Positions 4,601-21,095 of a DNA stretch of 40,823 bases are shown here, piece by piece. The translations under genes and the position numbers were made by a program. The notes beneath the pieces were generated by a model, which saw only the letters and a list, made by a program, of their open reading frames with translations, did not search any database and was not told the DNA's origin. The stretch's first letter is position 1. Each line of letters starts with the position of its first letter. Source of the stretch: Oscillospiraceae bacterium (GTDB lineage Bacteria > Bacillota > Clostridia > Oscillospirales > Oscillospiraceae). The stretch covers positions 1-40,823 of the forward strand of contig JAFPWN010000034.1 of NCBI GenBank assembly GCA_017412765.1. Direction: 5' to 3'.

Positions 4601-7600
4601 AGAACAGGAAGGTGTTGCCGCCGTTGCGTACAAGCTTCGGGGTACCGACCTCCACCTGCTCGGTGACGGTGTGCGTCTCAAACTGTTCGGTAAGGGTATT
4701 GTAATACTGGGTCGTTTTGGTCCTGTCGCCCGCCACGCGGATGGGAACGTAGGTGCCGTGGGTCTCGAAGTTATAATACTGCATGTACAGCTCGCGGTCC
4801 TCGGCGGTGTTCATGTTGAAGTCCTTGTCCACCGTGAAGGCGAAGGCTGCCAGGCCGTCAAGGCCCGACGCCACCGTCAGGTCGTTGATGGGAGGATCTG
4901 CGTATTCACCGCTCTCGGTCAGAATGGTGGAGGGCAGGAAGCGCTCGCCGGCGTAGTCGGCAATATAGCCCGCCATGCCTTCAATCTGTCCATCCTGGTC
5001 CGGATCGTATTCCGCCATTGTCTTCGGGTCAAACTCGTTTTCATAGAGGAAGTCCCTGACCCAGCCTGCCGGAACGTCATACAGATTACCCGTATCGTCC
5101 TTGTAACCGGCATTCGTGTCCGCCACGCCATTGTAGAGCATGTAGCATACCATGCTGTAAGTCTTGTCCGGATCGGCGCCGGCGCTGACGATGTCGTTGA
5201 GCTTGTCGCCGGCGTTGTCGTATGCTTCGTCGTCCTGGGCGGTCTTGTAATAGATGACGATGTAATCCTTCGTGCCCTCGTCGTAGACTGCAAGCGGGTA
5301 ATCATCATAGTATTCGTCGTCCGTGAGTTGGGTGATCTCGCCGAAGCTCTCGCTCTGCTTGTCGAACTCCACGGTGAAGATGTCCATAATGCTCATCACG
5401 CGGGCGGGATCGGCCTCCATTGCCTCCACGATCTCAAAGTCCGCCGGCTCGCGTCCGAGCGCTGTCTTAAGCTCGGAGGCGAAGGTTTCCTTCAGAGCGA
5501 CATACTTCTCATCAGTGGCGGAAGCCCAGGAGAGGATGACCTTGTCGTCCGCATCCGCGAGGCTCGGACGGCTGTCCATCGTGTAATCATCCTGAACGGT
5601 CTCAGGCTCGGTCCACGTATCGTTCGTCGCGTCGTAGACCGTCCATTTCAGCGTTGACGCCATCATGGAATCTCTCGAAGCAGTATCATCAAGGAATGCA
5701 ACAAGGAACTTGTTGTTTCCGATATTGATGATCTTGCTGTTCGGCTGATGGAAGGCGTCCTCCATAATGGGTGTGGTCTTCACCACGCTGTAGGCGCTCA
5801 TCAGCTCACCGTCATCGGCGACCCACTGGGAATCAACGTGGGGCTGGGTGTGGAAGCGGATGCCGCCGGGCGCGGTGTCGTCCTGCAGCACACCGTTGAT
5901 GATGGCGCCGCCGATGCCTGCCTGCTTGTTCATCTCGATGGTGTTCTTGGTGACCCAGTCGATGATGTCGTGGTCGTAGGCATAGTTTTTCAGGGCGTAG
6001 GTCTTTTCTCGGATCTGTTCGGTCTTGCCGGTATAGTTGTCGATGAGGGGGATCAGCTCGTTGATCATCGCCCGAGCCTGGGTCCTTGCCGCCTCACTGT
6101 CGCCCTTGCCCTTGGCGAGGCCGTTTTCCACGTAGCTTATGCACTTGTTGCCGCGGTTGGCCTCCTGGAACCAGTAGAGGTAGCCGCCCGCCACGGGGAT
6201 GGGCCAGGTGGCGCTGTAAACGTCGATGGAGGTGACGATGATGTCGATGGTGCCGGTGAAGGTGGCGTCCATGGTATAGCCCTTGCCGTCGTCAAACAGC
6301 TCCGGATACCACTTCGGCACGTTCTGGTTGTAGCCCGTGTTGAAGCCCACGGTCACGCTGACGCGGACGCCGAGGAGCTTGGGGAGACCCGCGCCGAAGG
6401 TGCCGGTGACGTAGATCCTGCCGTCCATGGAGAAGTTGAAGGAGAAATCCTGCCCGTGGAGCTCGCCGGAGCTGTTGGCCTCCGCCAGCGTCTTGTTGGG
6501 GTCCGCCTCGGAGCCAAGGTAGAACGTGAGCTTTATGCCCGCCTCCACGTTGACGTACAGGGGGATGGGGCCGGCCATGAACGCCCAGGTGTAGCCCACC
6601 GTGGAGCCGAAGCCGATGAAGCCGCCCGCGCCCATAAAGACCATCTCGTGGCTCTTCTCCACGCCGCCGTTCTTGGAGATCTCGACGTAGCCGTAGCAGA
6701 GATAGACGCCGAAGTAGACGCTGACGGTGAAGTAGGGCCCGCCGAATTTGCTTATGGTTTCCTTTGTCGGATTTTCGGTTTTTGCCGTAGTTATTTGGTT
6801 GTAGATCAATTCGTTTGTTACGGTGCTGGGGTCGACTTCCGGCGCGGTAACCTTTCTCGGGCACAGCAAATCACCGAGTTTAAACTGAAGGTTTGCTTTG
6901 GTGTTTCTCGTGCGCTCGTATTGGTTGCCGGCGCCGTAGGTGAAGATGGCGCCCAGCATGAAGCGCACGCCGCCGTAGAAGTTGTCCGTCATGGTGAAGA
7001 ACATGCTGAAGGTGACGGGCGTGCTCTGCCACGCTCCCGGCGTCTTTCCGACGTCAAACGACATAGTGTCGTCGAAGTCGGAAGTGTCTCCCATGAATTC
7101 CGAAGACGCGATATTCAGGTCATACTCCATCATCCTCGCCTCTTCACTCATGAAGGCGGTGCTGACGAGCTTGCTGACGATCCTGATCGCCGAGGTGATC
7201 TCGCCCAGGTAAGGGAAGGCGCCGTAGCTGTAACGGGTGTCGTCGTCCTGAAGAGCGCCGTCGTCATAGATCGGATCGCCGTCCTCGTCGGTGCCCGGGG
7301 TGATCTGCAGCGTTTCCGCGAGGTCGTCAATGTCGTAGTCGAAGGTCCGCGGCTTGTAGTCCGGGTCGGCGTAAACGCCGAAGCCGGTGGAGACGGGGTC
7401 ATAGACCATGTCGCTGTCAGCAGCCAGGCCGACGCCGCGCTTGTCCGTGATGAGCTGCGCCATCAGCACGTCGCCATAGGTCCACTCCGTCGGGTGATCC
7501 GGGTCGAAGGGATAGATTTGAAGCACGAACTCGCCGGTCTCCGGGTTCCAGCTCCACTTGGCCGGGCTGTCCTCGGCAGGCTCATACAGGGAGGAGTAGA

Positions 7601-10600
7601 TGCCGTGTCTCTCGCCGGTGTACTGGTCCTGGAAGTAGAGCCGGACCTCCTTGATGTGCTCGGTGTAGGTCTCGTGGTTCAGAACGTAGTCATCGCCGGG
7701 GGCGACCTTGGCGATGACGGTCAGCCTCTGGCCGTTCATGGCGACGGCGTTGAGCGCGCCGCGCAGCTTGCCGTACTGGTTGGCGGTTACGCTGATGAAG
7801 TGGGCGCCGGTGGCGGAATAGGTGTCCGTCCGGACCTCACCCAGGTCGGCGCCGATGGCCTGAACGAGCTTGCCATCCGCGCTCACGGCGTCCTTCTTCC
7901 CCGCGCCGAGGCCCGGTACCGTCGCCTCCTGAATGGTGCTCACGCCGTTGTAGCTCACCAGATAGCGCACCTTGCCGCCCGCGCGGGCAAGCAGCGCCGG
8001 GAAGGTGAAGGCGCCGTTCTCATCGGTGACCGCGCCGGCATAGCCGTGGGTCAGGATGGCGCCCTCCACCGGGTTTTTGTCTGTGGCGCTGCGGCCGGAG
8101 GATAGGTTCATGGTGGAGGTGACGACGGTGCCGGCGAGCTGCATATAAACAAGATCGCGGCCCTCGTAGACCTCCAGCGTGATCACGTTGTCCCTGGCCC
8201 TGGCCTTGGAGCGGAAGTACAGCGTGTCGCCGTAGAACGCGCTGCCGTCGCTGAGGGTCCACTTGACCACGGCGGCGTCGGGGTCCGCCACGTAGGCGTT
8301 GATCTCGTAAAGGTCATTCACCCAGACCTTCTCGTCGACGACGTAGACCCAGTGGTCGCCCTCGTGCGTCTTGCGGACGAAATTGCCCTCGTCGTCGCTA
8401 ATGCCGACGTAGCTCACGTTCGCATTGCAGTGGCCGCCCATGACGGGGCCGCCAGCCTTGTTGAAGTCCCACAGCAGAGAGGGATAACCCGTTCCGTTGT
8501 TCTGGAACGCCCTGGCCCTCGCCTCGTCCGGGAAGAAGGCTATATAGTCGATCTGGATCTGGCTGCCGTTTACGGTGTTGCCCTCCATGGGATCCAGACG
8601 GAACCATTCGACGATTCCCGTCCAGCCCGTAAGGTTCACAACGTACTCGTGCCAGCCCTTGTCCTTGTTCAGCGTCACGGTGACGCCGGACGCTTCGTTG
8701 ACAGTGTCCTCGCCGGAGCCCGCAAACAGCTTCATGCCGTCCACGCCGCTCACGTTTCTCGCGCGGATCTTCACCCACTGGCTGTAACTCGCGTTGACCG
8801 GCGTATCAATGGAGACCTGCGGGTCGTCCGAGGACGCCACAAACCGATAGTAATCGCTCTCGGCGCAAAGACCCGCCGTCTTGTTGAGCTTGGCGTAGGA
8901 GGCGTCGGGGATTATCACGGTGAGGTTGCCGTTCTCGGTGAAGGTCGGCTCGATGTTGTAGTAGGGGTGGTCCACCGTGTTGCCCGCGCTGTCGCGGTCG
9001 GTGAGCTGGAGGCTCAGGCTGCCGTTCAGATAGTGCTGATCCACGGCGTTATGGGTGAACCCCTCCGCGTTGGAGGTGTGCAGCTCATAGAAGAAGCCGT
9101 CGGCGTGCATTTTGGCGCTGGCGCCTGCCTCGTTTACTTCCGTCTGCAGTGTCAGCACGTCGCCGACGTGGTAGGTCAGCTGTAACAGACCTGATACGCG
9201 GTCGTCCTCTGTCGCGCGGAACGTTCTGGCGCTGCCCTCTGAGGAGAAGAACGCCATGTAGTCGATCAGAATGGCGCTGCCGTTCTGGACGTTGCCATCC
9301 ATCGGGTCAAGGCGGAACCAGGTCAGCGCGCCCTTCCAGTTCGCAGCCTGATAGTTGGGCTGCTTTGTCAGATCAACGACGTATTCGTGCCACTCCGTAT
9401 CCTGATAGAGCGGGATCTTGATGTTGCTGGGCCCGATATAGGCGTTGTTGGCGGAGGCGAAAAGCTGAAGATAGCTTGCGCCGTTTAAGTTCTTTGCCGC
9501 GAACTTTAGATAGCGTATGTTGTCTATGCTCTCCGCATGGTCTGCGACGGAGACGTATGGGTCGTTGCCGCTCGCCGTGAAGCGGTAGTAGTCGCGGCCG
9601 TCCTGGTTTTCAGCGGTCCATGAGACGTTGGTGGCGCGCCATAGGGAGCTTATGCCCATCAGATCATCCATGGCACGATCCGAGCCAAAGTCCCAAAGCA
9701 TATTTGGAAGCGGCGCCTCGGCGTTCAGTGTGCCGTAGTCGGGATTGGCGCTCTTGAACTCCACAGTGGCGTCGATGTAGTCAAACACCGGTCGCACGAC
9801 GATGGCGCCCTTGTAGAACTTACCGCCCTTGCCCTTATCGCCGTAGTCGCACTTTCCGTTCTCGCTCCAGGTGATGCAGGCGTGCTCATCCAGCGTGCGG
9901 ATCACGTCCGGGGTCAGCTCCACAGTCACGGTGGAGGACTTGCCGTCGATGGTGGCGATGCGGTACCACGCGTCCTTGTCGCCCTCTCCGATCTTAGCCT
10001 CGATACCCACAAGGCGCAGGGGGCTCTTGGTATCCTTGGCGTTGAGGGCGAAGCTGTCCCCGGTCCAGAGGCTGCGGGTGCTGTTATTGGAGTTATCCAG
10101 GAAGACTGCCTCATACTCCGTAAGCACGGTGTTGTCGTCAACGCCGATGAGAGGCTTCAGTTCAGGTTCTTCCACCCTGATGTTGAACTGACGCTTGATG
10201 AGGCGCACCTCGTCGACCCACATAACGGCGTAGCTGTCGGTCCAAGCAGCGCCCTCGTTGTCCACGTTGGCGACTTCTATTCCGATTCGTTCAGGGGCGT
10301 TCACGTTGTTCCATGCCCCATAGAGCCACTGGTCCTCTTTCACGCCGCCGTCGTCGAGATAGTTGACCTGAATTTGGGTACGGTTGCCGCCGTTCCAGCG
10401 CGTCAGGCGAAAATCAGCGTCGCACCAGTTCAGGAAGCCTTTATAGTGCACATACGCTCCGTCGTAGGCCTTGCCGTAACTGGCGGTGTCCAGATAGAAG
10501 TGGGAAGTCTCCTCCTTGTCGATGCGGGTGAAGATATGGAAGGCGGTCTCGGAGTCAAAGCCTCCGATGTCATAATATCCGTCCTCGAGGTTGATGGGAT

Positions 10601-12143
10601 TCGTAAGAGGATGACCGTTAACTTGATCAAGTGCCATCAGCGCGCCTTCACCGCCGGATATCTTCGCAGGCGGGATAATTACGTGGGTGGTCGACGCGCC
10701 GATTGTCTCGTCGTTCAGCGCGGTGATGGTGATGTAAAAGTCCTTCTCTTCTTCTCCGTTCAAAACGGGGATCTCAACGGTACGACTCTTGATGCCCATC
10801 GGGATCCAGAGCTTCGCGCCGACGCCGGAGTACTCGTCGCCCTCCTTGGCGCTGCCGCCCCAGGATTTGAGCATAACGCCAACGAGTGCGTTGAGCCGTC
10901 CCTCGCGGGTGATGGTGATCGAAGCCTTGCCGTCTTCAGCGTAGACAGTCTCGGCCGCCATACTTACTGTGACCGTCTCTGGTTCGTCCTCATCAATGAT
11001 GGTTACGGAGATCGGGTTCACGTCCTCGCCAATGGCGAAGCCCTCGCCGGGGTTCTTGAGCAGCAGGATGATCTGCGCGTCGCCCTCCGCCGCCTCGGAA
11101 TAAAGCGGTGTCACGACCAGGAACTTCACCGACTCTCCGGCGTTGAAGTGCAGGCGGTACTCCTTGCCCGGATAGTTGTCCGCGACCGCGTCCGCCATGG
11201 CCTCGTTGTACTCGTCCTCCGTCATGGTGCTGCCGTTATTGGCGACGAAATCGGCGAGGCTGCTACCGGCAATCTCCTGCCTATCGGACTTCGTGCCGGT
11301 AAAGGAATCACGGGCAGCGCGGAGCGACTTAGTGGGAGAGGTCTTCTTCTCAGCCTCTGTCCACTCGCCCTCCTCCACCTCGCCCGGGATCACGGGCTCT
11401 TTTTTCTCAACGGGAGTCTCGTTCTGCTCTGCCGGAGTCTCGTTCTCCTCGGTCGGAGTCTCATTTTCCTCGGTCAGAGTCTCATTTTCCTCGGTCGGAG
11501 TCTCGTTTTCCTCAGTCGGAGTCTCGTTCTCCTCGGTCGGAGTCTCGTTCTCCTCGGTCAGAGTCTCGTTCTCCTCGGTCGGAGTCTCGTTTTCGACGAT
11601 AGGATTTCCGTTTTCGTCCAGCGGAGTCGCCGTTACTTCAGCGATCGGGTTGCCATCACTGTCAACGAGCGTAGCGCCGCCCGCATCATGGATGAGCTCG
11701 CCGAGGTCGCTTTCGGAACCTATTTCCACTTCCTCCTGCTCGTCGGAGTTAAGCGTGATCTCTTTGATGGACATATCCGCCAGGAATATATCGGGATCTA
11801 CGATCTCTTTGTAAATCTCGGCGGTGTAGTTCACATCGTGCTTGGCTGTGAGATCAACTATCTTCAGCGTAACCTCCGACTCCATATCGATGTCGCCGGT
11901 ACGCTGAATAGGGATGTAGAGCTTATCCGGGCTCTTTTCACTGATCGAATAAGCCGACTCGGGAACGAAGAACCAGTTGTCTCCGTCCTTAAACCGTTCC
12001 GGTACTGTGATCTCAATATGCTCTGCGGGATTGACCGCCTTATCCACCTCTTCAACCGCCCAGGCAATACCGTATTCTCCTGCCTGGATCAGCATCAGAA
12101 GCGCAAGCACCATTGCAATCGCGTTTCTAAAGAACTTTTTCAT
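1617..12143 (-). CDS. Giant multidomain SLH-anchored surface protein (3508 aa)
   Basis: The protein begins with a signal peptide (about 1-30). Approximate order: Calx-beta-like segment (40-130); acidic repeat of nine ENETPTE-type heptads (182-245); a second Calx-beta-like segment (385-495); two related carbohydrate-binding-like beta-sandwiches (815-975 and 1095-1215), both with W-H-E-Y-V-V-[DN]-L-T and WFRLDPM[DE]GN; a carboxypeptidase-regulatory-like segment (1350-1405); a long beta-rich part (1690-2080); a propeller-like part (2130-2715); CARDB-like domains (2750-2965); a Big2-type Ig domain (3005-3085); and three SLH repeats (3321-3508). These point to a wall-anchored adhesin or glycan-binding protein. 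No catalytic motif is recognised. AAGGAG precedes the ATG. It lies 53 bp after the 58-aa leader-peptide gene and shares its SLH end with the next gene. Domain names come from eye-read motifs and are approximate. Confidence 0.9.
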   Translation of the reverse strand: MKKFFRNAIAMVLALLMLIQAGEYGIAWAVEEVDKAVNPAEHIEITVPERFKDGDNWFFVPESAYSISEKSPDKLYIPIQRTGDIDMESEVTLKIVDLTAKHDVNYTAEIYKEIVDPDIFLADMSIKEITLNSDEQEEVEIGSESDLGELIHDAGGATLVDSDGNPIAEVTATPLDENGNPIVENETPTEENETLTEENETPTEENETPTEENETPTEENETLTEENETPTEENETPAEQNETPVEKKEPVIPGEVEEGEWTEAEKKTSPTKSLRAARDSFTGTKSDRQEIAGSSLADFVANNGSTMTEDEYNEAMADAVADNYPGKEYRLHFNAGESVKFLVVTPLYSEAAEGDAQIILLLKNPGEGFAIGEDVNPISVTIIDEDEPETVTVSMAAETVYAEDGKASITITREGRLNALVGVMLKSWGGSAKEGDEYSGVGAKLWIPMGIKSRTVEIPVLNGEEEKDFYITITALNDETIGASTTHVIIPPAKISGGEGALMALDQVNGHPLTNPINLEDGYYDIGGFDSETAFHIFTRIDKEETSHFYLDTASYGKAYDGAYVHYKGFLNWCDADFRLTRWNGGNRTQIQVNYLDDGGVKEDQWLYGAWNNVNAPERIGIEVANVDNEGAAWTDSYAVMWVDEVRLIKRQFNIRVEEPELKPLIGVDDNTVLTEYEAVFLDNSNNSTRSLWTGDSFALNAKDTKSPLRLVGIEAKIGEGDKDAWYRIATIDGKSSTVTVELTPDVIRTLDEHACITWSENGKCDYGDKGKGGKFYKGAIVVRPVFDYIDATVEFKSANPDYGTLNAEAPLPNMLWDFGSDRAMDDLMGISSLWRATNVSWTAENQDGRDYYRFTASGNDPYVSVADHAESIDNIRYLKFAAKNLNGASYLQLFASANNAYIGPSNIKIPLYQDTEWHEYVVDLTKQPNYQAANWKGALTWFRLDPMDGNVQNGSAILIDYMAFFSSEGSARTFRATEDDRVSGLLQLTYHVGDVLTLQTEVNEAGASAKMHADGFFYELHTSNAEGFTHNAVDQHYLNGSLSLQLTDRDSAGNTVDHPYYNIEPTFTENGNLTVIIPDASYAKLNKTAGLCAESDYYRFVASSDDPQVSIDTPVNASYSQWVKIRARNVSGVDGMKLFAGSGEDTVNEASGVTVTLNKDKGWHEYVVNLTGWTGIVEWFRLDPMEGNTVNGSQIQIDYIAFFPDEARARAFQNNGTGYPSLLWDFNKAGGPVMGGHCNANVSYVGISDDEGNFVRKTHEGDHWVYVVDEKVWVNDLYEINAYVADPDAAVVKWTLSDGSAFYGDTLYFRSKARARDNVITLEVYEGRDLVYMQLAGTVVTSTMNLSSGRSATDKNPVEGAILTHGYAGAVTDENGAFTFPALLARAGGKVRYLVSYNGVSTIQEATVPGLGAGKKDAVSADGKLVQAIGADLGEVRTDTYSATGAHFISVTANQYGKLRGALNAVAMNGQRLTVIAKVAPGDDYVLNHETYTEHIKEVRLYFQDQYTGERHGIYSSLYEPAEDSPAKWSWNPETGEFVLQIYPFDPDHPTEWTYGDVLMAQLITDKRGVGLAADSDMVYDPVSTGFGVYADPDYKPRTFDYDIDDLAETLQITPGTDEDGDPIYDDGALQDDDTRYSYGAFPYLGEITSAIRIVSKLVSTAFMSEEARMMEYDLNIASSEFMGDTSDFDDTMSFDVGKTPGAWQSTPVTFSMFFTMTDNFYGGVRFMLGAIFTYGAGNQYERTRNTKANLQFKLGDLLCPRKVTAPEVDPSTVTNELIYNQITTAKTENPTKETISKFGGPYFTVSVYFGVYLCYGYVEISKNGGVEKSHEMVFMGAGGFIGFGSTVGYTWAFMAGPIPLYVNVEAGIKLTFYLGSEADPNKTLAEANSSGELHGQDFSFNFSMDGRIYVTGTFGAGLPKLLGVRVSVTVGFNTGYNQNVPKWYPELFDDGKGYTMDATFTGTIDIIVTSIDVYSATWPIPVAGGYLYWFQEANRGNKCISYVENGLAKGKGDSEAARTQARAMINELIPLIDNYTGKTEQIREKTYALKNYAYDHDIIDWVTKNTIEMNKQAGIGGAIINGVLQDDTAPGGIRFHTQPHVDSQWVADDGELMSAYSVVKTTPIMEDAFHQPNSKIINIGNNKFLVAFLDDTASRDSMMASTLKWTVYDATNDTWTEPETVQDDYTMDSRPSLADADDKVILSWASATDEKYVALKETFASELKTALGREPADFEIVEAMEADPARVMSIMDIFTVEFDKQSESFGEITQLTDDEYYDDYPLAVYDEGTKDYIVIYYKTAQDDEAYDNAGDKLNDIVSAGADPDKTYSMVCYMLYNGVADTNAGYKDDTGNLYDVPAGWVRDFLYENEFDPKTMAEYDPDQDGQIEGMAGYIADYAGERFLPSTILTESGEYADPPINDLTVASGLDGLAAFAFTVDKDFNMNTAEDRELYMQYYNFETHGTYVPIRVAGDRTKTTQYYNTLTEQFETHTVTEQVEVGTPKLVRNGGNTFLFWRENGTSVKYLNVSRMLKAKVAAVADPDPDVESDWTYAVKDDGTFAVDAVMGKAYAPNVQTVEVLSSMTDEDIHITDFDFITDDEDNLYVVWTDVVTVSETDEFGQMKLVPAQEIFVSGMVQQDAETVKGTDEEGQEYTDASTTARWSKPYRLTRENAFNDGLARALDDNGGLIIVHNQFTKQIAQSEEEMMSLIAAGKIGVTTDRAGNYYAASIEYNSPIRMMVTRCDKVGSLEATEFTFSDELPVAGQVIGVQAAIENVGLTNAKGFEIEFYEYKDGVKGQQIGETITSDETIPVNTAAFVTFPWTVPADGPEGYSILASVREKNSSGYYDAIETRSETLQSLARFRLDVGEITQDGDEFIVNYTVRNTGNKAVPEGYDVKLLLSGLYGDLDSAKYGFIEDELLYSKALTLPAKTAEATSVLVAAEDGDKEVSGTTVTYSEFSESARVTIPASVFRFCGYDAVQIVITDKDGTIVADGGDHPFRQTEPMNLSLNGGKTVSLSAGSTKQVALDYDSNVFIDGGTVLYSVQDPTVASVSAHGELMGLANGTTTLTATMLPSGRTTSITVNVNGYNTEPGNTGSETINVGTSGEDDSIEVSATIEGSTAAVSAPTEAQLETIAEKAKETGSVTIDLSSLPEGVTAASIPAETIKAINDAMDESGAGMTVKLPDSSVKLDTEALSSITAQAAGTDIVIHVETVDESALNANQKEAFKDEEVEAVYDVYITADNERIAFLGDGRASITVTHEAKKDQKLSGFSVVYAAEDGTKEKIPTVARKDSVTFTVNHFSNYILTYSDPGDCAKDDNCPMSAFSDLNMNQWYHDGVHWALENGFMNGLGDGKFGPDDNTNRAMIVTMLHRLEGTPKVGNELTFTDVKEGEWYSEAIRWAAANGIVGGYGDGRFGPEDTLTREQLAVILCRYARYKGIDTAAGELKPLNGFNDAAAVSEWAVKEMRWAVDEGIINGVGNDTISPKTSATRAQVATMLMRYSALDK
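11411..11600 (-). repeat. Nine-copy 21-bp tandem repeat encoding ENETPTE heptads
   Basis: A 21-bp unit repeats nine times in frame within the giant SLH gene (residues 182-245). Seven units read ENET[PL]TE and the last two drift to ENETPAE and QNETPVE. The near-identical DNA suggests recent slippage or recombination, so copy number probably varies between strains. The product would be an extended, highly acidic spacer between the N-terminal domain and the rest. Confidence 0.9.
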
Positions 12144-12196: not shown

Positions 12197-12373
12197 TCAG
12201 CCTTTGTTTCTCATATCTTCGTCAATGGGCTGGGTGGGTACGCGGGGTAATCTTGCAAAGGGGTTGCCTGCTCCGGCGATCTCGTCAAGCTCGTCGTCGC
12301 CGAGCTCCTGCATCGCGCCGTTGAGCGCCTTGTTCTCAAGGATAACGTTCTCTTTGTTCTTGTTGTCTTTCAT
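12197..12373 (-). CDS. 58-aa precursor peptide with double-glycine-type leader
   Basis: ATG at 12373 follows AAAGGAG at good spacing; stop TGA at 12197-12199. The N-terminal half is charged (MKDNKNKENV) and ends in LGDDELDEIAGA. This fits the C39-peptidase leader rule: Glu28 at -8, Leu29 at -7, Ile32 at -4, Gly34 at -2 and Ala35 at -1. Cleavage after Ala35 would release a 23-residue peptide starting GNPFARLPRVP and ending MRNKG, with three further prolines and no Cys, so no lanthionine or disulfide. It lies between the subtilisin gene (36 bp) and the giant SLH gene (53 bp), in a locus that encodes a C39 transporter. The core matches no family I know. It could be a bacteriocin-like peptide, a signal, or a surface-protein partner. 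Confidence 0.8.
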   Translation of the reverse strand: MKDNKNKENVILENKALNGAMQELGDDELDEIAGAGNPFARLPRVPTQPIDEDMRNKG

Positions 12374-12409
12374 TTTCGTATTCTCCTTTATAATTATTTA
12401 TTATATTCA

Positions 12410-13813
12410 TTAAAGCGATCTTCTCGCTGTTGCGAGCGGAGTCATGGTGCCCGTCTCAAAGACGAACTGTCCGTAATACTTACTCTCCGGCGGGTCAACT
12501 CTCATCCTTCCCCGGGCAGGAACGGTAAATTGCGATCTCGTTACACTGAGGCAGGTTCCGTAGCCGTCGTACTCGGCAAGAAGATAAGTGCAGTTTATTT
12601 CCTCGTCTGTATAATTCACAAGCGTAAAAGCGGACAGAAATTCGCAGGGTGTTTCGTGTGTGAATGCGTCTGCCGTCCCGGCAATGCGCTCTGCGCAGGC
12701 GCCGAGGTCGAGGATACCGTATCCGTAGTATTCGTCCAAGCCCTCCGTTCCGGCATCACGCGCCGTTTCCGTCAGAATGGAAGCGATATCATCAGGCGTA
12801 AGCTGCGGGTCAAGGCCGCGCATCACGGCAGCCGCCGCAGTGACGAAGGGAACGGAAAAGGAGGTGCCGGAGGCGGTGACGTAACCGCCCGATTTCCCGG
12901 CGGTCTTCACATTCGCGCCGGGGGCGGTGAGGAACACACTCTCGTTGTGGTTTGAGTTATAATACACCGTTCCGTTCTGATCGACCGCCCCAACGCCGAT
13001 TACGCTCTCGTAATCCGCCGGGTACATTCTGCCCACGGTGCCGTTGTTTCCGACAGCAGCGACAACGACAACGCCTTTTTCGGCTGCATATTCGACCGCT
13101 TCCCGCAGCGCCTCGAAATCGGAATTTACACCGAGGCTGAGGTTGAGAACGTCGCAGTCAAAGTCGTCGATGCCGCCGTAGATAGCGCGGCACACCGCGC
13201 TGACAGTGACCGCCTTGCCGTCTGTGATCTTCAGCGGTATGATCAACGCTCCCGGCGCGGCGCCGATGTAGCCGTCCTCACCACGACCAGCTATCAGCGC
13301 GGCGACAAGGGTGCCGTGACCATAGTTGTCAGAGGTGTCTTCCTCATCCTTGCCCTCAATGTAGCTGCGTCCGGGAAGAATGTTATCTGCAATGCAGGAA
13401 ACCGGGTTTACGCCCGAGTCCAGCACGCCGACCCGCACGCCCTCGCCCAGCGCGCCCATCTCAAACGCAGGCTCGGCGTTTACGAGAGCGAGATCCCATT
13501 TGTCATCTGCGTAGTAAATGGAGCTTCCGCTGTCAAGCAGCGTCATCTCGCCGTCCGGCTCATACCACGCCAGCAGTCCCGCGTCTCTGAGGCGGATCAT
13601 TTCCGCCTCGCTCACAAGGTCGAACGGTTCGCCGCCGGCAAGCCAGGCCGCGCTCTCCTTATATTTGACTATGTAATCCGTTCCCGCCCCTCCGGCAGCA
13701 TCATCGGGAACTGCGTGAATGAGAGCGGCTGATATTATTATCGCAAGCAAAAGCGGCCGCAGCCTTTTTCTGCATATATCATATTTACTCAGAACACCGT
13801 CACCTCTGTTCAT
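12410..13813 (-). CDS. Secreted subtilisin-like serine protease (S8)
   Basis: 467 aa. After a basic N-terminus there is a signal or anchor helix (about 18-35), then a short propeptide-like part (45-100) and the S8 catalytic domain. Catalytic residues are visible: Asp132 in GVLDSGVN, His166 in YGHGTLVA, Ser318 in SGTSFSVP, with oxyanion Asn256 in AVGNNG. The final 80 residues form a small beta domain. The ATG overlaps the sigma-factor stop (ATGA at 13810-13813), so translation is coupled. Acting outside the membrane, it could trim the exported peptide or the SLH proteins encoded downstream. That substrate link is inferred from position only; fold and triad are clear. Confidence 0.93.
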   Translation of the reverse strand: MNRGDGVLSKYDICRKRLRPLLLAIIISAALIHAVPDDAAGGAGTDYIVKYKESAAWLAGGEPFDLVSEAEMIRLRDAGLLAWYEPDGEMTLLDSGSSIYYADDKWDLALVNAEPAFEMGALGEGVRVGVLDSGVNPVSCIADNILPGRSYIEGKDEEDTSDNYGHGTLVAALIAGRGEDGYIGAAPGALIIPLKITDGKAVTVSAVCRAIYGGIDDFDCDVLNLSLGVNSDFEALREAVEYAAEKGVVVVAAVGNNGTVGRMYPADYESVIGVGAVDQNGTVYYNSNHNESVFLTAPGANVKTAGKSGGYVTASGTSFSVPFVTAAAAVMRGLDPQLTPDDIASILTETARDAGTEGLDEYYGYGILDLGACAERIAGTADAFTHETPCEFLSAFTLVNYTDEEINCTYLLAEYDGYGTCLSVTRSQFTVPARGRMRVDPPESKYYGQFVFETGTMTPLATARRSL

Positions 13814-14280
13814 ATAAGCTTCTCGCGCAGAATCGCCAACGCGCGCTTATGCTTTACCCGCACCATTCCGTAGCTGATGCCCGTCATGCGGGATATTTCC
13901 TTCAATGTCTTTTTTCTGTAATAGCGCAATATGATAAGGTTTCTCAGCTCCTCATCCATCGCGCTTAACGTCGACGCAAGCTTTTCAAGCGTCGCCTCTT
14001 TAATCAGTGCCTCGTCATAGCCGGCATCATACCCGAGCTCCTCGTCCAAAGGCTCTGTGATATGTCTTGTTCGTATGTCATCAATCAAAGTGAATCGGGT
14101 TATTCTGTAAATCCATGTTGAGAGTGAAGCTTTCTGCGCGTCATATCTCGGAAGAGAGCGTCCTATCTGCTCGAAAACGTCCTCGCAAAGATCCTCCGCA
14201 TGCTCCGGGCTGGGCGTCCTGTCAGTAAGATAGGCGAGAACTTTTTCACGATATGAAGCGTAGATTTCCTCGTACGTCAC
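13810..14280 (-). CDS. ECF-like sigma-70 family RNA polymerase sigma factor
   Basis: 156 aa with sigma region 2 (about 8-75, including DLCEDVFEQIGRSLPRYDAQKASLSTWIYRITRFTLIDDIR, given here only as the region-2 landmark positions 31-71) and region 4 (about 100-155, with ILRYYRKKTLKEISRM and a YGMVRVKHKRAL recognition helix). It directs RNA polymerase to a dedicated promoter set. Start is GTG at 14280, overlapping the stop of the 65-aa peptide gene (GTGA), with AAGGA inside that gene. No classic transmembrane anti-sigma factor is encoded next to it. The overlapping 65-aa protein occupies the place where an anti-sigma gene is often found. Its target is probably this locus, but no repeated promoter motif was proven. 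Confidence 0.9.
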   Translation of the reverse strand: MTYEEIYASYREKVLAYLTDRTPSPEHAEDLCEDVFEQIGRSLPRYDAQKASLSTWIYRITRFTLIDDIRTRHITEPLDEELGYDAGYDEALIKEATLEKLASTLSAMDEELRNLIILRYYRKKTLKEISRMTGISYGMVRVKHKRALAILREKLI

Positions 14281-14474
14281 CGGAAGCCGTCCTTCTGATT
14301 CAGACCGGTCAATTGTGAAAACGGGTCACCCGCCGCGGACAGCGATTCAAGCTCCGCGTCCGTCAGCGAAATAAGCCGCTGCGTTTCTGCTTCGTCTATA
14401 ACGCTCTGCAGCGCCTCGTTCCTTTCAAATCGCTGAAAGTCAAACAACGCGTCAAGGAGCTTTTCTATGTCCAT
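14277..14474 (-). CDS. 65-aa leader-like peptide coupled to the sigma factor
   Basis: ATG at 14474 is preferred because GAGGTGAT lies 8 bases upstream. In-frame GTG (14483) and ATG (14480) starts sit inside that ribosome site. The first 30 residues are a charged amphipathic helix (MDIEKLLDALFDFQRF). The last 29 read LTDAELESLSAA then GDPFSQLTGLNQKDGFR. This aligns with the 58-aa precursor of the same locus (LGDDELDEIAGA, GNPFARL). The -8 Glu, -7 Leu and -4 aliphatic positions are kept, but -2 is Ala instead of Gly, which should weaken C39 cleavage. Its stop overlaps the sigma-factor start. It may be a second exported peptide, or a cytoplasmic sigma modulator that mimics the leader. I know no named family. 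Confidence 0.75.
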   Translation of the reverse strand: MDIEKLLDALFDFQRFERNEALQSVIDEAETQRLISLTDAELESLSAAGDPFSQLTGLNQKDGFR

Positions 14475-14502
14475 TAGCATCACCTCGCTGTCTTCCTCTG
14501 AT

Positions 14503-14533
14503 TTTATATCCGAATCACTTTGAAAAATCGCAA
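14503..14533 (-). promoter_or_regulatory. Possible internal promoter before the 65-aa peptide gene
   Basis: In the AT-rich 102-bp gap after the second ABC gene, the minus strand reads TTGCGA (533-528), 19 bases, then TATAAA (508-503). The spacer is long for sigma-A, so this is weak. It would let peptide, sigma, protease and SLH genes be expressed apart from the exporter genes. Confidence 0.3.
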
Positions 14534-14576
14534 TGGTTTTTAATTTTTTTAATAAGAATTATGTATTACGTATCCT

Positions 14577-16757
14577 TTATGCGTCGATACGCTGGCGTTC
14601 CACCAGCTCCGCGAAAAAGCCTCCCTTTTGGATCAGCTCGTCATAGCTGCCCTCCTCGATGATCTTTCCTCCGTCGAGGACCAGAATGCGGTCGCAGTTC
14701 TGTATGGTCGAGAGCCTGTGAGCAATCACGATGCGAGTACATTTCAGCGCGTCAAGCGCCTGGGAGACCTGCTTTTGGGTCTTGTTGTCAAGCGCACTGG
14801 TGGCCTCGTCAAAAAGCAGAATCTTCGGCTTGGGGGCGATGGCGCGGGCGATCATGATCCGCTGCTTCTGTCCGCCGGAGATGCCGCCCTGTCCCTCGCC
14901 GATGATCGTGTGCATTCCCATTAGCATGGCTCGGATGTCGTCCGCAATGCCGGCAATTTCCGCCGCCTCCCACGCGTCGTCCAGTGTCAGCTCCGGCGCG
15001 GAGACGGTGATGTTGGAGTAGATGTCCCCCAGAAACAGACTGCCGTTCTGAATAACGACTCCCATTCTGCGGCGCAGGGATTGCAGATCCAGTGAGCGAA
15101 TATCCTTGCGGTCATAGTAAATCGCGCCCTTTTGCGGCGTCTCAAAGCCCAGCAGGAGGCGCATCAGCGTCGATTTGCCGCAGCCCGTCTTGCCGACAAT
15201 GGCAACGTACTCACCCGCCTTGATATTCAGGCTCAGGTCGTCGACAATATTGGGCATATTCTCCTGATAGCGGAAAGATACGTGGCTAAGCTCGATCCTG
15301 CCGGAAAGTCTTGTAACGATTTCTTTTTCTGCCGTCATCTCCGGCTCAGCCTTAAGGATCGGCTCCGCCATTTCGAGGATCGGACCGATTTCGGCAGCCT
15401 GGGTGACGATGCCCGCAAACGCGGCGAACGCCCCCGTTATCGCTCCGTATGCCGCGCTGAACGCAAGATACGACGAGGGATCGACGCCCGATACCGTCGC
15501 GAGATAATAAATGATCACAGTGCCGATCAGAGGGATCGCCGCAATAACGGCGGGGCTGATCTTCAGAAAAAGCGGCGGATTATATTGGATCTGAGCGCCC
15601 TCAGCGTAGGTATGCGCCCATTTTGCAAAGGCGCGCTTTTCCGCGCCGGAGAGCTTGATCTTCTGCATTCCGGAAATCAGTGCGAAGCTGACGCCGCTCT
15701 CCTCCGCGCTTTCCTTCAGGAATCTCCTCGTTTCTTTTGTCTGCAGATAACCCGTCAGAAGCGTTACGCCCACGGCTGCGGCAACCACTATGATAGCCGC
15801 AGGCGCAAGCGCCGGTGCATAATCAAAAAGCTGGCTGACGTACAGAAGCGACAGTATCGACGTCACGCCGAAGGAAAACACGCCGCCCAGAAGCAGTACG
15901 CACAGCCGGTTGATTCCTCCGCTTCTCATAGCCAGATTGCCGGCGTTGAACGCACGGAAAAACGGCGTTGGGAGGCTCATGAGACGCGACATCATCGCCG
16001 CCTCCATCGGCAAAGCCACCTTGATCTGTATGCGGTTCATCGCAAGCTCTCTCGATGCTGTGAGCAGCTGCGACGATACGAGTATGCACAGCATGAAAAC
16101 GGCAGTACTCCAAAGAATCGTACTGCTTCCGCTCTCCAGCACAAAGCCGCTCAAAAAATCGGTCGCGCGAGGCAGCATCATTCCGACAAGCGTCACCATC
16201 AGCGTCAGCGCGATGACTGCGGCATAGTCGTAAAGATTCAGGCAGCCCTTCATATATGATATCAGATCCGGTATTCCGAGCGAGCGCTGCGGCAGCGGCT
16301 GATAGAAGCAGATAGCCTCCTCCTCCAGCAGCCCGCAGGTCTTCTTTCCCGCCGTAATCTTATGGCCTTGCGCGTCGTACCAGTAATAGCCTCCGTACTT
16401 TTTCGGGATCAGCGCCACGGGCAGGCCGTCCTCCCGGCGGATGCCGATCATGGGAACGAAGGTATCTCTGTACCAGCTTCCCGAAAGCGTCACGTCACGC
16501 CGCATAATCCCATAAGGTCTGAGGGCGTAGTCAAGCTGTTCCCCGGGATCTGTAACCGAGGATGGGATCTCCACCGGCTTGCAGTGATAATATTTCAGAA
16601 CGTCGTCAATGGCCGCTTTCGTCACAAAGCGCTCATTGCGAAGCGCGTCGGACACTCGCTTGCCCATCACGACGGAGGTCATGCCCAGAATGGAATCCTC
16701 GAACACTTCGCTGTCATTTTGCTTGCGAAGCCGAATCTGTTCATCAAACCAGCTCAT
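14577..16757 (-). CDS. NHLM-type ABC transporter, permease/ATPase without peptidase
   Basis: 726 aa. The N-terminal 160 residues are a soluble domain lacking the C39 Cys/His residues. Six membrane helices follow (about 180-460), then an ABC ATPase domain (about 490-720) with Walker A GKTGCGKST, signature SGGQKQR, Walker B ILLFDEATSALD and switch His in IAHRLST. The long soluble N-terminus next to a C39-containing partner is the arrangement of the two-ABC NHLM bacteriocin export systems. It should form a heterodimer with the neighbouring C39 transporter in the cytoplasmic membrane. The ribosome site GAGGAGG starts in the partner gene's stop codon (11-bp gap), so stoichiometry is probably coupled. 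Confidence 0.88.
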   Translation of the reverse strand: MSWFDEQIRLRKQNDSEVFEDSILGMTSVVMGKRVSDALRNERFVTKAAIDDVLKYYHCKPVEIPSSVTDPGEQLDYALRPYGIMRRDVTLSGSWYRDTFVPMIGIRREDGLPVALIPKKYGGYYWYDAQGHKITAGKKTCGLLEEEAICFYQPLPQRSLGIPDLISYMKGCLNLYDYAAVIALTLMVTLVGMMLPRATDFLSGFVLESGSSTILWSTAVFMLCILVSSQLLTASRELAMNRIQIKVALPMEAAMMSRLMSLPTPFFRAFNAGNLAMRSGGINRLCVLLLGGVFSFGVTSILSLLYVSQLFDYAPALAPAAIIVVAAAVGVTLLTGYLQTKETRRFLKESAEESGVSFALISGMQKIKLSGAEKRAFAKWAHTYAEGAQIQYNPPLFLKISPAVIAAIPLIGTVIIYYLATVSGVDPSSYLAFSAAYGAITGAFAAFAGIVTQAAEIGPILEMAEPILKAEPEMTAEKEIVTRLSGRIELSHVSFRYQENMPNIVDDLSLNIKAGEYVAIVGKTGCGKSTLMRLLLGFETPQKGAIYYDRKDIRSLDLQSLRRRMGVVIQNGSLFLGDIYSNITVSAPELTLDDAWEAAEIAGIADDIRAMLMGMHTIIGEGQGGISGGQKQRIMIARAIAPKPKILLFDEATSALDNKTQKQVSQALDALKCTRIVIAHRLSTIQNCDRILVLDGGKIIEEGSYDELIQKGGFFAELVERQRIDA

Positions 16758-16768
16758 GAAATGCCTCC

Positions 16769-18928
16769 TCAGTCGTTTGTGATAAGCTCGGCATAATAGC
16801 CGCCCTTGGCGTACAGCTCATCGTGGGTCCCGCGCTCCACCACCTTGCCATGGTCCAGGACGATGATCTCGTCTGCGTCCCGGATCGTGGAGAGCCGGTG
16901 GGCGATCATGATGGTCGTCACCCCGCGCTCCTTGACAGCGTTTGCGACCTCGTATTCCGTCCTTGCGTCAAGGGCGCTCGTCGCCTCGTCCATGATGACG
17001 ATGTGCGGGTCCTGCGCCAGCACGCGGGCGATCTCCAGCCTCTGCCGCTGACCGCCGGAGAGGTCCTGCCCGCCCTCTTGGATGCGGCACTGATATCCTC
17101 CGGGACGCGCCATAATATCATCGTGTATCTGCGCGTCGCGGCAGGCAAGGATCATCTCAAAGTCCTCGATGCTGTCATCCCACATTTTGATGTTGTTCGC
17201 AACCGTATCGTCAAAGAGTATGATATCCTGATCTACAACGGCAACGCTGCCGGTAAACACGGCGCGATCGATTTCGGAAATCGGCTTCCCGTCAAACAGG
17301 ATCTCACCGCTCCAGGGCTGATACAGCCCCGAAACGAGCTTGGCGATCGTGCTCTTGCCGCAGCCTGAGCCGCCTACAAGCGCCACTCTCCCGCCGGGCT
17401 TGATTTTAAGCGAAAAATCCTCAATCAGCGGCGGGGCAAGTCGGGAATATCCGAAGGTAACGTTTTTCAGCTCCACCTCGCCGGTGAGCTTGTCGTAATC
17501 TTTGTCATCGCGCACAGGCTCGTCAGAATAATAGCTGTCCTCCGGATACTGCATCACGTCCTCAACGCGCTCCATCTGCGTGCGCATCTCCTGGATCTGC
17601 TGGCCGGAGGTAATGAGCTGCATGGCGGGGCTCATAAAAGCCGTAAGGAAGCCCTGGAAAGCCGTCACCATACCGAGCGTGAACTGTCCGCGCATACAGA
17701 GCCACACGCCGATGATAAGCACGAGCGCGTTAGCCAGGGCGGTGATAAAGGTCGGTATAACGCCGAGATACTGATTAAGTCTCGCAAAGCTCGTAGCCTG
17801 CGCGTTTACCGACGCCTGATAGTCGCCCCATTTGCGGAAATAGCCGTTTTCCGCACCGCTCGCCTTGATCGTCTCGATCATCTGAATGCCGGAGACCGTG
17901 GCCGCCGCGAGCTTGCCGCTGTCGCGCATCATGACCCTAGTGATATTGACGCGCTTTTCGGAGATCCGCCTGCTCAGAAAGAGGTTAAGACCCACGCTGA
18001 TCAGCCCGATCAAGGTAAGGAGAGGACTGTACCGGAGCATGACCCCGAGATAGAAAACCATCATAACCGCGCTTATTGCAAGCGGAGATACGGTGTTCAC
18101 AAGCATCGAGGCGATCACAGCGTTCCCTTCCTGGCGCGTCTGAATGTCACCGGCCATGCGCTGGGAGAAGAATTCCATCGGCAATCGCATCAGCTTCCAC
18201 ATGAAGCTGCCGTTGCTGATGACGGCCATCTTGCCGTTTATGCGAAGGGTGAAAACTCCCTTTACCGACTCTACAATAAGCTGAAGCAGTATCACAAGAC
18301 CCGCAAGCCCGATAAACGGCAAAAGAACCTCGCGGTTTTCGCCGGTCAGAAGCCGATCCATAAAGAACCTGGATAGAGCCGGGTTAATGATCGTAAAAAG
18401 ATACCCCAGCATGCTGGCAAGCATCACGAATGCGACGGCGCCGCCCGCTCCGGCAAGCCTTTTGCGCGCAAAAGAGAGTGTGCTGGCGCGTTTGCCTCCC
18501 GGTTTGAAGCTTTCGCCCGGCGAGAAGGTCAGCACGATGCCGGTAAAGGACTGTTCAAATTCCTCCATCGGGATCTTGACCGTGCCGCGCGCAGGGTCGT
18601 TGATATAGGCATACTTTCCGCGAAAACCGCAGAGCAGTACGTAGTGATTGTAATTCCAGTAGATAATGCAGGGAAACGTCGCCGTTTCGCGCAGCGCGTC
18701 AGTTTCCGCCCGGAAGCCTTTTGCGATCAGGCCGTAGCTTTTCGCGGCATTCAGAATGTTTTTTGCTTTTGATCCGTCACGCGATACGCCGCAGTCCACT
18801 CGCACCTGTTCCAGAGGCACCCATTTCCCGTAGTACGCCAGCACCATCGTAAGACATGCCGCGCCGCACTCCAGCGCCTCCATCTGCATAATGACCGGCG
18901 CCTTTATAACTTTGTTCTTCTTTTTCAT
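16769..18928 (-). CDS. C39 peptidase-containing ABC exporter (NHLM-type)
   Basis: 719 aa. The N-terminal C39 domain (about 10-140) removes double-glycine leaders during export: MEALECGAACL carries catalytic Cys21, WNYNHYVLL His95, and INDPARG Asp111, all intact. A six-helix permease (about 165-440) and an ATPase domain (about 485-715) follow, with Walker A GGSGCGKST, signature SGGQRQR, Walker B IVIMDEATSALD and IAHRLST. This is the catalytic and transport core. Candidate substrates in the window are the 58-aa peptide (consensus GA site) and perhaps the 65-aa peptide. It lies 11 bp after the HlyD-like gene, whose TGAGG stop provides the ribosome site. Confidence 0.93.
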   Translation of the reverse strand: MKKKNKVIKAPVIMQMEALECGAACLTMVLAYYGKWVPLEQVRVDCGVSRDGSKAKNILNAAKSYGLIAKGFRAETDALRETATFPCIIYWNYNHYVLLCGFRGKYAYINDPARGTVKIPMEEFEQSFTGIVLTFSPGESFKPGGKRASTLSFARKRLAGAGGAVAFVMLASMLGYLFTIINPALSRFFMDRLLTGENREVLLPFIGLAGLVILLQLIVESVKGVFTLRINGKMAVISNGSFMWKLMRLPMEFFSQRMAGDIQTRQEGNAVIASMLVNTVSPLAISAVMMVFYLGVMLRYSPLLTLIGLISVGLNLFLSRRISEKRVNITRVMMRDSGKLAAATVSGIQMIETIKASGAENGYFRKWGDYQASVNAQATSFARLNQYLGVIPTFITALANALVLIIGVWLCMRGQFTLGMVTAFQGFLTAFMSPAMQLITSGQQIQEMRTQMERVEDVMQYPEDSYYSDEPVRDDKDYDKLTGEVELKNVTFGYSRLAPPLIEDFSLKIKPGGRVALVGGSGCGKSTIAKLVSGLYQPWSGEILFDGKPISEIDRAVFTGSVAVVDQDIILFDDTVANNIKMWDDSIEDFEMILACRDAQIHDDIMARPGGYQCRIQEGGQDLSGGQRQRLEIARVLAQDPHIVIMDEATSALDARTEYEVANAVKERGVTTIMIAHRLSTIRDADEIIVLDHGKVVERGTHDELYAKGGYYAELITND

Positions 18929-18939
18929 TCCGAAAAGCC

Positions 18940-19356
18940 TCAGTTGAAGAGAATATCGATGATCTGCGAACTTCTGTATCCGACGCTCGCCTTGTAGCTG
19001 CCGTCCGGCAGATCGGTCTTGGCAATGGCTACCGGTTTGCCGTCATCATCGCTTCCGACGGAAAGCACCGGCATCACAAAATCTCCGACCTTGGCATTCA
19101 TACCCGGCTCGACAAAAGACGCCTTTTCCTCATCGTCAAAACGCAGTGTCAGAACGCCGCCGCGCACCTCGGCTTCACCCTCCGCAAAGCTCTCCAGGGC
19201 GGTAACGCTGCTCCAGACGAAAAGGCTCGCAAGCAGCAGTATCACAGCAATCAGCACGACCCAGATTGCCGGAGTGGTTACGTGCAGATAATCGCTGAGC
19301 TGCTCCGGCGAGGATACGCGCTCCACGCTCTTTTTATTTATTATCGGCTGTTCCAT
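18940..19356 (-). CDS. Minimal HlyD-like secretion protein of the exporter
   Basis: 138 aa. A cytoplasmic tail with SSPEQLSDYLHVTTP is followed by one membrane helix (about 29-52) and a 75-residue outer domain rich in beta strands. The SPEQL...VT-P stretch right before the helix is typical of the HlyD-family protein of NHLM systems. Those are normally several hundred residues long, with a coiled-coil hairpin and lipoyl domains. Both are absent here and no frameshift is seen, so this seems a naturally reduced adaptor. This makes sense in a single-membrane cell. AAGGAG precedes the ATG. It is the first gene of the export block. Confidence 0.75.
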   Translation of the reverse strand: MEQPIINKKSVERVSSPEQLSDYLHVTTPAIWVVLIAVILLLASLFVWSSVTALESFAEGEAEVRGGVLTLRFDDEEKASFVEPGMNAKVGDFVMPVLSVGSDDDGKPVAIAKTDLPDGSYKASVGYRSSQIIDILFN

Positions 19357-19378
19357 ACTTATCTCCTTCAGTGATTTC

Positions 19379-19409
19379 AGTCAGCAGCTATCAATCTCTG
19401 CTGCTGACT
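19379..19409 (-). promoter_or_regulatory. Perfect 10-bp inverted repeat upstream of the exporter genes
   Basis: AGTCAGCAGC (379-388) pairs perfectly with GCTGCTGACT (400-409) around an 11-base loop. It lies in the 110-bp gap between the phosphatase stop and the HlyD-like start and has no T-tract in either direction. It could be an operator for the nearby regulator, an RNA attenuator hairpin, or an mRNA processing site. No clear sigma-A promoter is visible in this gap. Confidence 0.5.
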
Positions 19410-19466
19410 TATTCAATCAGATGCTCTTCCTCCGACGCGATGAACTTTCATTTATTGCCCAATACG

Positions 19467-20987: not shown

Positions 20988-21095
20988 TAGCTTACACCTC
21001 GGCAAAAAATTTGGGATAAAAGGTCGAACTAAGGCAGAATGCAGATAGTCCGTCGGTATCTTTGCAAAAGCCAATAAAAATGGCATTATTATTCA

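Follow-up and report, generated by a model that had tools for sequence, protein, structure and literature searches.

A leader-like protein paired with an ECF sigma factor at C39 peptide exporters of Bacillota: a possible gauge of export capacity

The window analysed here, a stretch of 40,823 nucleotides from an Oscillospiraceae bacterium, carries on its minus strand a peptide exporter that includes a transporter with a C39 peptidase domain and, directly downstream of the exporter genes, a gene for a 65-residue protein, pepA, which overlaps the gene of an extracytoplasmic function (ECF) sigma factor. The new point of this analysis is the pepA–sigma pair, which recurs beside related exporters in other genomes. 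We propose, with a probability of roughly 0.35, that the locus is a peptide-export system with a built-in capacity sensor, in which pepA would restrain the sigma factor and would also dock on the exporter. No description of a pairing between a sigma factor and a leader mimic at exporters of the nitrile hydratase leader microcin (NHLM) or peptidase-containing ATP-binding cassette transporter (PCAT) type was found in the open-licence PubMed Central (PMC) literature.

The pepA gene (14277..14474, minus strand, with 25 family members aligned) starts with an ATG at 14474, giving 65 residues, or alternatively with a GTG at 14483, giving 68, and its stop codon overlaps the start of the sigma gene (13810..14280, minus strand) by four bases. 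The 156-residue sigma factor matches PF04542, PF04545, and TIGR02937, agrees with the ECF type (regions 2 and 4 only, about 160–200 residues), and also matches ECF sigma structures in the PDB. Relatives of pepA were found in the window and in 25 of the 80 loci (labelled L) that scored best among 582 in a scan of other genomes for the peptidase-bearing transporter ABC1, making 81 with the window; as the loci are often cut by contig ends, the figure of 25 of 80 should be read as a minimum. The sigma gene lies at or beside the pepA stop codon in 26 of 26 pepA loci, having been detected in 25 and its start having been read by eye in L049, which is cut by a contig end; the set includes close relatives, for example L055/L058, L056/L066/L076, and L067/L072. 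The order ABC2–pepA–sigma–pepB–SLH, in which ABC2 is the second transporter, pepB a 58-residue peptide, and SLH an S-layer homology protein, recurs in other species (L015, L022, and L159) and is thus more than a chance arrangement. The sequence-only reading, which had regarded the sigma factor as wired to the export system and had named gene order in relatives as the check, is in this part borne out by the conserved pepA–sigma–exporter arrangement: order and peptides are kept beside homologous transporters, and neither a loss of the order nor a lack of the peptides was seen.

The 25 aligned members share the consensus MxxExxLxxLFDFQRFxxNxRLxxxIxxxExxYxxxxLxDxELExxNAAGE, with conservation concentrated in two parts, the LFDFQRF helix at the N-terminus and the region of AAG; the C-terminal tail is short and variable. 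Assignment of pepA to a known family was dropped, as Pfam gave no match, the PDB none of significance, and NCBIfam a single one below threshold, and a place on mobile elements was likewise set aside, with no match among plasmids or phages.

Profile searches extended the pairing to further genomes (labelled G). Matches to pepA were found in 9 of 295 genomes of the window's order, in 4 of 295 of a second order (G510 included), and in 5 of 391 in a sample of the class, of which G303 and G510 were new, two were repeats, and G429 was false. The G429 match lies inside a 747-residue ClpB-like open reading frame (ORF; L122), and a second match in G279 lies inside a 356-residue ORF on another contig (L098); both were excluded from the counts. 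Among the 14 pepA genomes thus combined, the sigma gene adjoins pepA in every case, with a swapped order in G257 and G808; in 12 of them, the contig also carries an exporter gene no more than 2.6 kb away. Four of the 14 were already rows of the profile (the window's own genome, G249 (=L056), G280 (=L081), and G303 (=L022)), and without them the sigma gene stands beside pepA in 10 of 10 and an exporter gene is close in 8 of 10. In the two orders, 21 of 295 and 38 of 295 genomes encode the NHLM-type ABC1 (E up to 1e-200), among them 7 of 9 and 4 of 4 of the pepA genomes, so that it accompanies 11 of 13 pepA genomes versus 48 of 577 others (Fisher 2.7e-10), or 8 of 10 versus 48 of 577 once the profile rows are left out (Fisher 1.6e-7); the two pepA genomes missing from the co-occurrence count have ABC2 directly upstream. 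A phylum-wide search of 398 genomes matched only the window's own genome and G1076, which indicates that the family is rare. A pepA relative at 6188-6508 of L169 has a Cys-rich tail after NAAM and a sigma gene upstream rather than downstream.

The C-terminal part of pepA is built like the leader of an exported peptide. According to PMC6959990, C39 peptidases recognize substrates of the pattern L(-12)xxxE(-8)L(-7)xxxxG(-2)G(-1), and a narrow cleft accounts for their Gly-Gly specificity, and PMC6363468 describes pockets for positions -4, -7, and -12, about 20 Å from the cut, and a loss of cutting when -4 is changed to Lys or Asp. Cut-site residues of GG, GA, or GS are given in PMC10885120. Set in the register of PMC6959990, the pepA motif LTDAELESLSAA|GDPF (14328..14366, minus strand) matches the substrate pattern except at the cut, where Ala-Ala (14331-14336) replaces Gly-Gly and the Gly expected at -2 is absent. 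This Gly is missing in 34 of 36 distinct pepA sequences, 22 of which have AA and 12 AG in the register counted from -7; the 25 profile rows comprise 14 AA, 9 AG, and 2 GG, and 11 further distinct members (L072 and 10 from the sampled genomes) comprise 8 AA and 3 AG. The register was placed by script except in L087 (AA), L019 (GG), G510 (AA), and G855 (AA), which were read by eye. The two Gly-Gly members, at 9569-9781 of L019 and 5308-5517 of L064, are natural cases on which the cleavability of pepA could be studied.

Leader motifs with different cut-site residues also differ in how often a sigma gene is close by. A stricter leader pattern applied to 152 loci, which partly overlap and in which identical motif contexts were counted once, returned 91 GG, 4 GA, and 22 AA motifs; the pattern was written after pepA had been seen and is blind to AG and GG members of the family, missing L019 and L064. 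A sigma gene on the same strand lies within 150 bp of 19 of the 22 AA motifs versus 4 of the 95 GG or GA motifs, two of the latter being pepB (L016 and L159). In the three other AA cases, the sigma gene is cut off (L049), stands at the other end of the exporter (L156), or the motif is a chance frame (L042). The 65-residue peptide, which had been grouped with the export peptides, is probably not a second substrate like the 58-residue one, as it belongs to a sigma-linked family mostly devoid of Gly at -2, two members of which keep Gly-Gly. Compared with the double-glycine leaders of PCAT systems (LahT, PCAT1, and ComA), pepB fits the register, whereas pepA keeps most of the docking part and differs in having no Gly at -2 in all but the two GG members.

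The pair is also preceded by common promoter-like motifs. In the clade of the window, alignment reveals an element, ATTGC[CG]A-N4-TCAAAGTGATTCGGATA (14507..14534, minus strand), upstream of pepA in the window, L015, L016, L022, and L159, with 0–5 mismatches to a pattern derived from these same sites, and a weaker form with 6 mismatches in L170. The window has a single copy of the full pattern, and 100 shuffles have 0; over 16 bases, the core has no other genomic copy at one mismatch or fewer, and over 15 bases, a one-mismatch copy lies on the opposite strand within the sigma gene. A wider regulon of this element was rejected, since two mismatches gave 8 genome sites on both strands versus 7 for a control pattern. 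In 12 Lachnospiraceae-type pair loci, some of them close relatives, a different motif, AACA-N15-CGTA, occurs 21 times versus about 6 expected (both strands, 406,714 bases counted twice-stranded, expectation at equal base frequencies). It precedes pepA in 10 of the 12 loci and stands before six genes of GG-leader peptides (L067, L072, L083, L071, and twice L077), and the five remaining occurrences include three that share one position within sigma genes of closely related loci. Under the stricter leader definition, 29 distinct leader ORFs were counted in pair loci and 55 in other loci, of which 3 and 1, respectively, have the looser AAC[AG]-N15-CGTA in range; this looser motif occurs at 0.076 per kb in pair loci and 0.020 per kb in others. 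This placement suggests that the sigma factor may control its own operon together with some exported peptides.

The mechanism that we propose would proceed as follows. The exporter (the HlyD-like protein, ABC1 with its C39 peptidase, and ABC2) would trim and export peptides with GG or GA leaders, while the ECF sigma factor would be bound and restrained by pepA translated from the same message. The leader-like C-terminal helix of pepA is predicted to dock in the C39 groove and, lacking Gly at -2, would mostly not be cut, so that a free exporter would pull pepA off the sigma factor. The released sigma factor would then transcribe its own operon and the peptide genes, and in the window, pepB and the SLH proteins apparently belong to the operon too. 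Once true precursors fill the exporter, pepA would be displaced and return to the sigma factor, and synthesis would fall; because pepA would both restrain the sigma factor and dock on the exporter, sigma activity would track export capacity. The loop might also run in reverse, with exporter-docked pepA holding the sigma factor at the membrane until substrates displace pepA and release it. The same facts fit this positive coupling, the sign of the loop not being fixed by the sequence, but it would raise precursor synthesis while the exporter is already occupied, and we regard it as unlikely.

Several observations weigh against the capacity-sensor proposal, and some of them favour its rivals. 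Gly-Gly stands in register in L019 (LMDEDLAKAAGG) and L064 (LSDDSLAFAAGG), and these two members look normal and may be cuttable, so that, in some lineages, pepA may be a cleaved or exported protein; all 12 AG members carry Asn at position -4, and their docking may itself be weak. The Cys-rich tail of pepA in G808 resembles cargo. In G808 and G868, the pair lies away from the exporter, with the NHLM ABC1 on another contig; L009 has the exporter, the S8 protease, pepB, and SLH without the pair, and L166 has an exporter-linked sigma gene with no AA-type peptide within the 11 kb covered. No copy of the promoter motif was found upstream of the exporter operon, nor, with the pattern tried, in L180. 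Finally, the co-divergence of pepA with the sigma factor (r 0.79) is no tighter than that of pepA with HlyD (0.79) or of the sigma factor with HlyD (0.80). A separate candidate motif shared before the exporter operons was not taken as real, its top dyad occurring in 5 of 20 loci, which are related, versus a shuffle maximum of 3.

The two Gly-Gly members are in keeping with a checkpoint resembling that of FlgM, in which pepA, as an anti-sigma factor, would be exported or cut by the exporter and the sigma factor freed once the exporter works. The leader-like C-terminus and the sigma–pepA–exporter linkage agree with such a checkpoint, but Gly at -2 is missing from 34 of the 36 members, and no relation of pepA to FlgM rose above threshold in Pfam, NCBIfam, or the PDB, so that we consider it conceivable but rather doubtful. 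Alternatively, pepA could itself be a substrate of the exporter, namely a short pheromone or a precursor peptide that is cleaved at or close to AAG, with the sigma factor serving only its expression. The short, variable, core-peptide-like tail, the Cys-rich tail in G808, the Gly-Gly in L019 and L064, and the GDPF that follows the pepA motif in the window clade, which resembles the GNPF of pepB, are all in keeping with this idea. It seems improbable, nevertheless, as conservation resides in the LFDFQRF helix and the AAG region rather than in the tail, Gly at -2 is missing from the same 34 members, and the pairing with the sigma gene is strict.

A last alternative is mere co-inheritance, with the sigma factor regulated otherwise, for example, by the phosphatase, STAS, and kinase-like genes of the RsbU/V/W type that are frequent near such loci. 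A gene for a SpoIIE-type phosphatase (19467-21086) lies directly upstream of the HlyD gene, followed at 21214-23087 by genes for a histidine kinase and for a response regulator whose N-terminus has a helix-turn-helix. In L015 (2354-4817), SpoIIE, STAS, and HATPase genes resembling an RsbU/V/W set stand just upstream of the exporter, and a STAS-containing group occurs in 16 loci. Furthermore, pepA, the sigma factor, and HlyD co-diverge to a like degree. Over 19 loci, five near-duplicates and one split ABC1 having been left out, these three and ABC1 all co-diverge (Mantel r 0.74–0.89), and the partial correlation of pepA with the sigma factor given ABC1 is 0.51. Nevertheless, RsbU/V/W-type genes are inconstant neighbours, whereas pepA is constant, even where the order is swapped or the exporter does not lie beside the pair, and co-inheritance alone accordingly has only a slim chance of explaining the pair. 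Between the SpoIIE and HlyD genes, a perfect 10-bp inverted repeat, AGTCAGCAGC...GCTGCTGACT, was seen by eye at about 19378-19411 and is possibly an operator or attenuator.

Related architectures point beyond the pepA family itself. The pepA–sigma–exporter arrangement extends to loci with Nif11-type peptides (named by eye) and radical-SAM enzymes, and exporter-linked sigma genes accompany other leader-like proteins of the Ala type in G055 (L156), G939 (L135/L167), and G751 (L165). In G1076, a nitrile hydratase leader peptide (NHLP), a sigma factor with regions 2 and 4, a 108-residue protein, SagB, and SagC/D-type enzymes for thiazole/oxazole-modified microcins stand in a row, with STAS and HATPase genes upstream on the opposite strand. 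The gene of the 108-residue protein overlaps that of the sigma factor, and the protein carries LSDDELEGISAAGDSW, with the Ala-Ala motif seen in pepA, near its end, followed by a short tail; its N-terminal part is unlike pepA and has no Pfam match above the cut-off, and the protein has no match among plasmids. It can tentatively be suggested that these proteins represent a new class of sigma regulators, in which a sigma-binding helical part, of several N-terminal types across exporter clusters of Bacillota, would be joined to a double-glycine leader mimic that would mostly escape cleavage, sense how much capacity is free on C39 (NHLM/PCAT) exporters, and adjust peptide production to it.

The closest known parallels differ in their parts. 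FlgM–FliA is a secreted anti-sigma checkpoint, and the likeness lies in a sigma factor that would be coupled to the state of a secretion machine; the window differs in its ECF sigma factor, its C39 ABC exporter, the lack of detectable FlgM homology, and a partner mostly without a cut site. In the streptococcal ComAB–ComC–ComX system, a C39 exporter of a double-glycine peptide is likewise tied to an alternative sigma factor, but through a two-component link and with no leader-mimic protein beside the sigma factor. ECF sigma/anti-sigma pairs share the small co-encoded partner and the promoter-like motif before their own gene, whereas pepA, at about 60–70 residues, bears an exporter-leader motif and matches no family. 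To our knowledge, it is largely an open question for double-glycine exporters how a cell is kept from producing peptides that it is unable to export. The leader-mimic/sigma pairing suggests that peptide production may be matched to export capacity, and, if so, the sigma factor and the leader mimic would form a direct feedback device on peptide production. Leader-like proteins without Gly at -2 that adjoin ECF sigma factors provide a handle for searches, and the promoter motif could predict the peptides served by each exporter in gut Clostridia, where these peptides are mostly unknown.

The exporter itself belongs to the NHLM type, as had been claimed: ABC1 exceeds its family cut-off, ABC2 falls just under, and the HlyD-type partner is short. 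ABC1 (16769..18928, minus strand), a PCAT with C39 peptidase, permease, and ATPase domains, scores 932 bits against the TIGR03796 cut-off of 853, matches Peptidase_C39 (PF03412) with an E of 4.7e-35, and aligns over nearly its full length with the PCAT1 and ComA structures; the Cys-His-Asp reported for it as intact was read by eye. ABC2 (14577..16757, minus strand), a permease/ATPase without a peptidase, scores 707.3 bits against the 709.4 of TIGR03797, which is by far its best family. The short HlyD-like membrane protein (18940..19356, minus strand, 138 residues) matches TIGR03794 weakly and only over the first, N-terminal 44 positions (E 5e-5; 22 versus 156 bits) and is not a full-length HlyD; of 81 loci, 62 have a homolog encoded on the same strand, at a median of 463 bases upstream of ABC1. 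Compared with NHLM/NHLP systems (TIGR03794/03796/03797), the window has an ABC1 above its cut-off, an ABC2 slightly below its own, and a HlyD-type partner, and differs in the HlyD of about 138 residues, the lack of an enzyme for ribosomally synthesized and post-translationally modified peptides (RiPPs), and the inserted sigma/leader-mimic pair. The lack of RiPP enzymes (LanM/LanC, YcaO, radical SAM) at the locus had been noted and holds in a Pfam scan of 28 ORFs of the window; YcaO and LanC have no match anywhere in the source genome (98% complete), which encodes two SPASM radical-SAM proteins, both on other contigs. Neither pepA nor pepB matches the nitrile-hydratase or Nif11-type leader families in Pfam or NCBIfam. 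In L088, the exporter genes appear split. In L019, L020, L029, L030, and L033, small GG-leader proteins near the exporters have an apparent LysM domain by eye, and it is possible that these are exported cell-wall-binding mini-proteins.

Every gene named in the tightly packed single-strand set is present in its place on the minus strand. The peptide pepB (12197..12373, minus strand, six sequences aligned including the window) has 58 residues, and its leader, LGDDELDEIAGA|GNPF, fits the register with L-12, E-8, L-7, a hydrophobic -4, and GA; the predicted product comprises the 23 residues after GA, GNPFARLPRVPTQPIDEDMRNKG. It is the sole strong copy in the source genome, and seven loci hold members (the window, L009, L015, L016, L017, L022, and L159) whose core, exceptions aside, approximates G[NDS]P[FYW]...PR...QPID..LR..G. 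A weak match in L077 (E 1e-4) is a GG peptide without this core and was kept out of the counts. Two SLH genes follow: a giant surface protein of 3508 residues (1617..12143, minus strand, Pfam Calx-beta, Big_2, and three SLH domains) and a second of 376 residues (393..1523, minus strand, PF00395), both present as had been described, though lying outside the 12197..19356 range given for the locus. The giant protein directly follows pepB in six of the seven loci, the contig of L016 ending 148 bases later, and in L017 the pepB–SLH couple stands apart from the exporter on the other strand. The suggested tie between export and surface-protein expression is real as a pepB–SLH link but was seen only in the clade of the window, the general theme being exporter-linked sigma control; pepB may act at the surface or in signalling and be produced together with its S-layer-type neighbour. 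Imperfect TPTEENE repeats were noticed in the N-terminal part of the giant protein, at about 11400-11700.

The secreted S8 subtilase (12410..13813, minus strand, PF00082 with an E of 8.6e-43), whose gene overlaps that of the sigma factor by four bases, has the mycosin model as its closest in NCBIfam, under the cut-off of that model. It had been listed as a part of the export locus and proves dispensable across relatives, being intact in three of the seven pepB loci (the window, L009, and L022), absent between the sigma gene and pepB in L016 and L159, and not detected in L017. In L015 (10365-10696), it is reduced to a C-terminal remnant of the last codons beside a palindromic repeat of the GGGGCGACC...GGTCGCCCC type. 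At 5001-7223 of L025, a 740-residue ORF has matches to the S8 protease as well as to the SLH protein, an apparent natural fusion of a protease with an S-layer protein.

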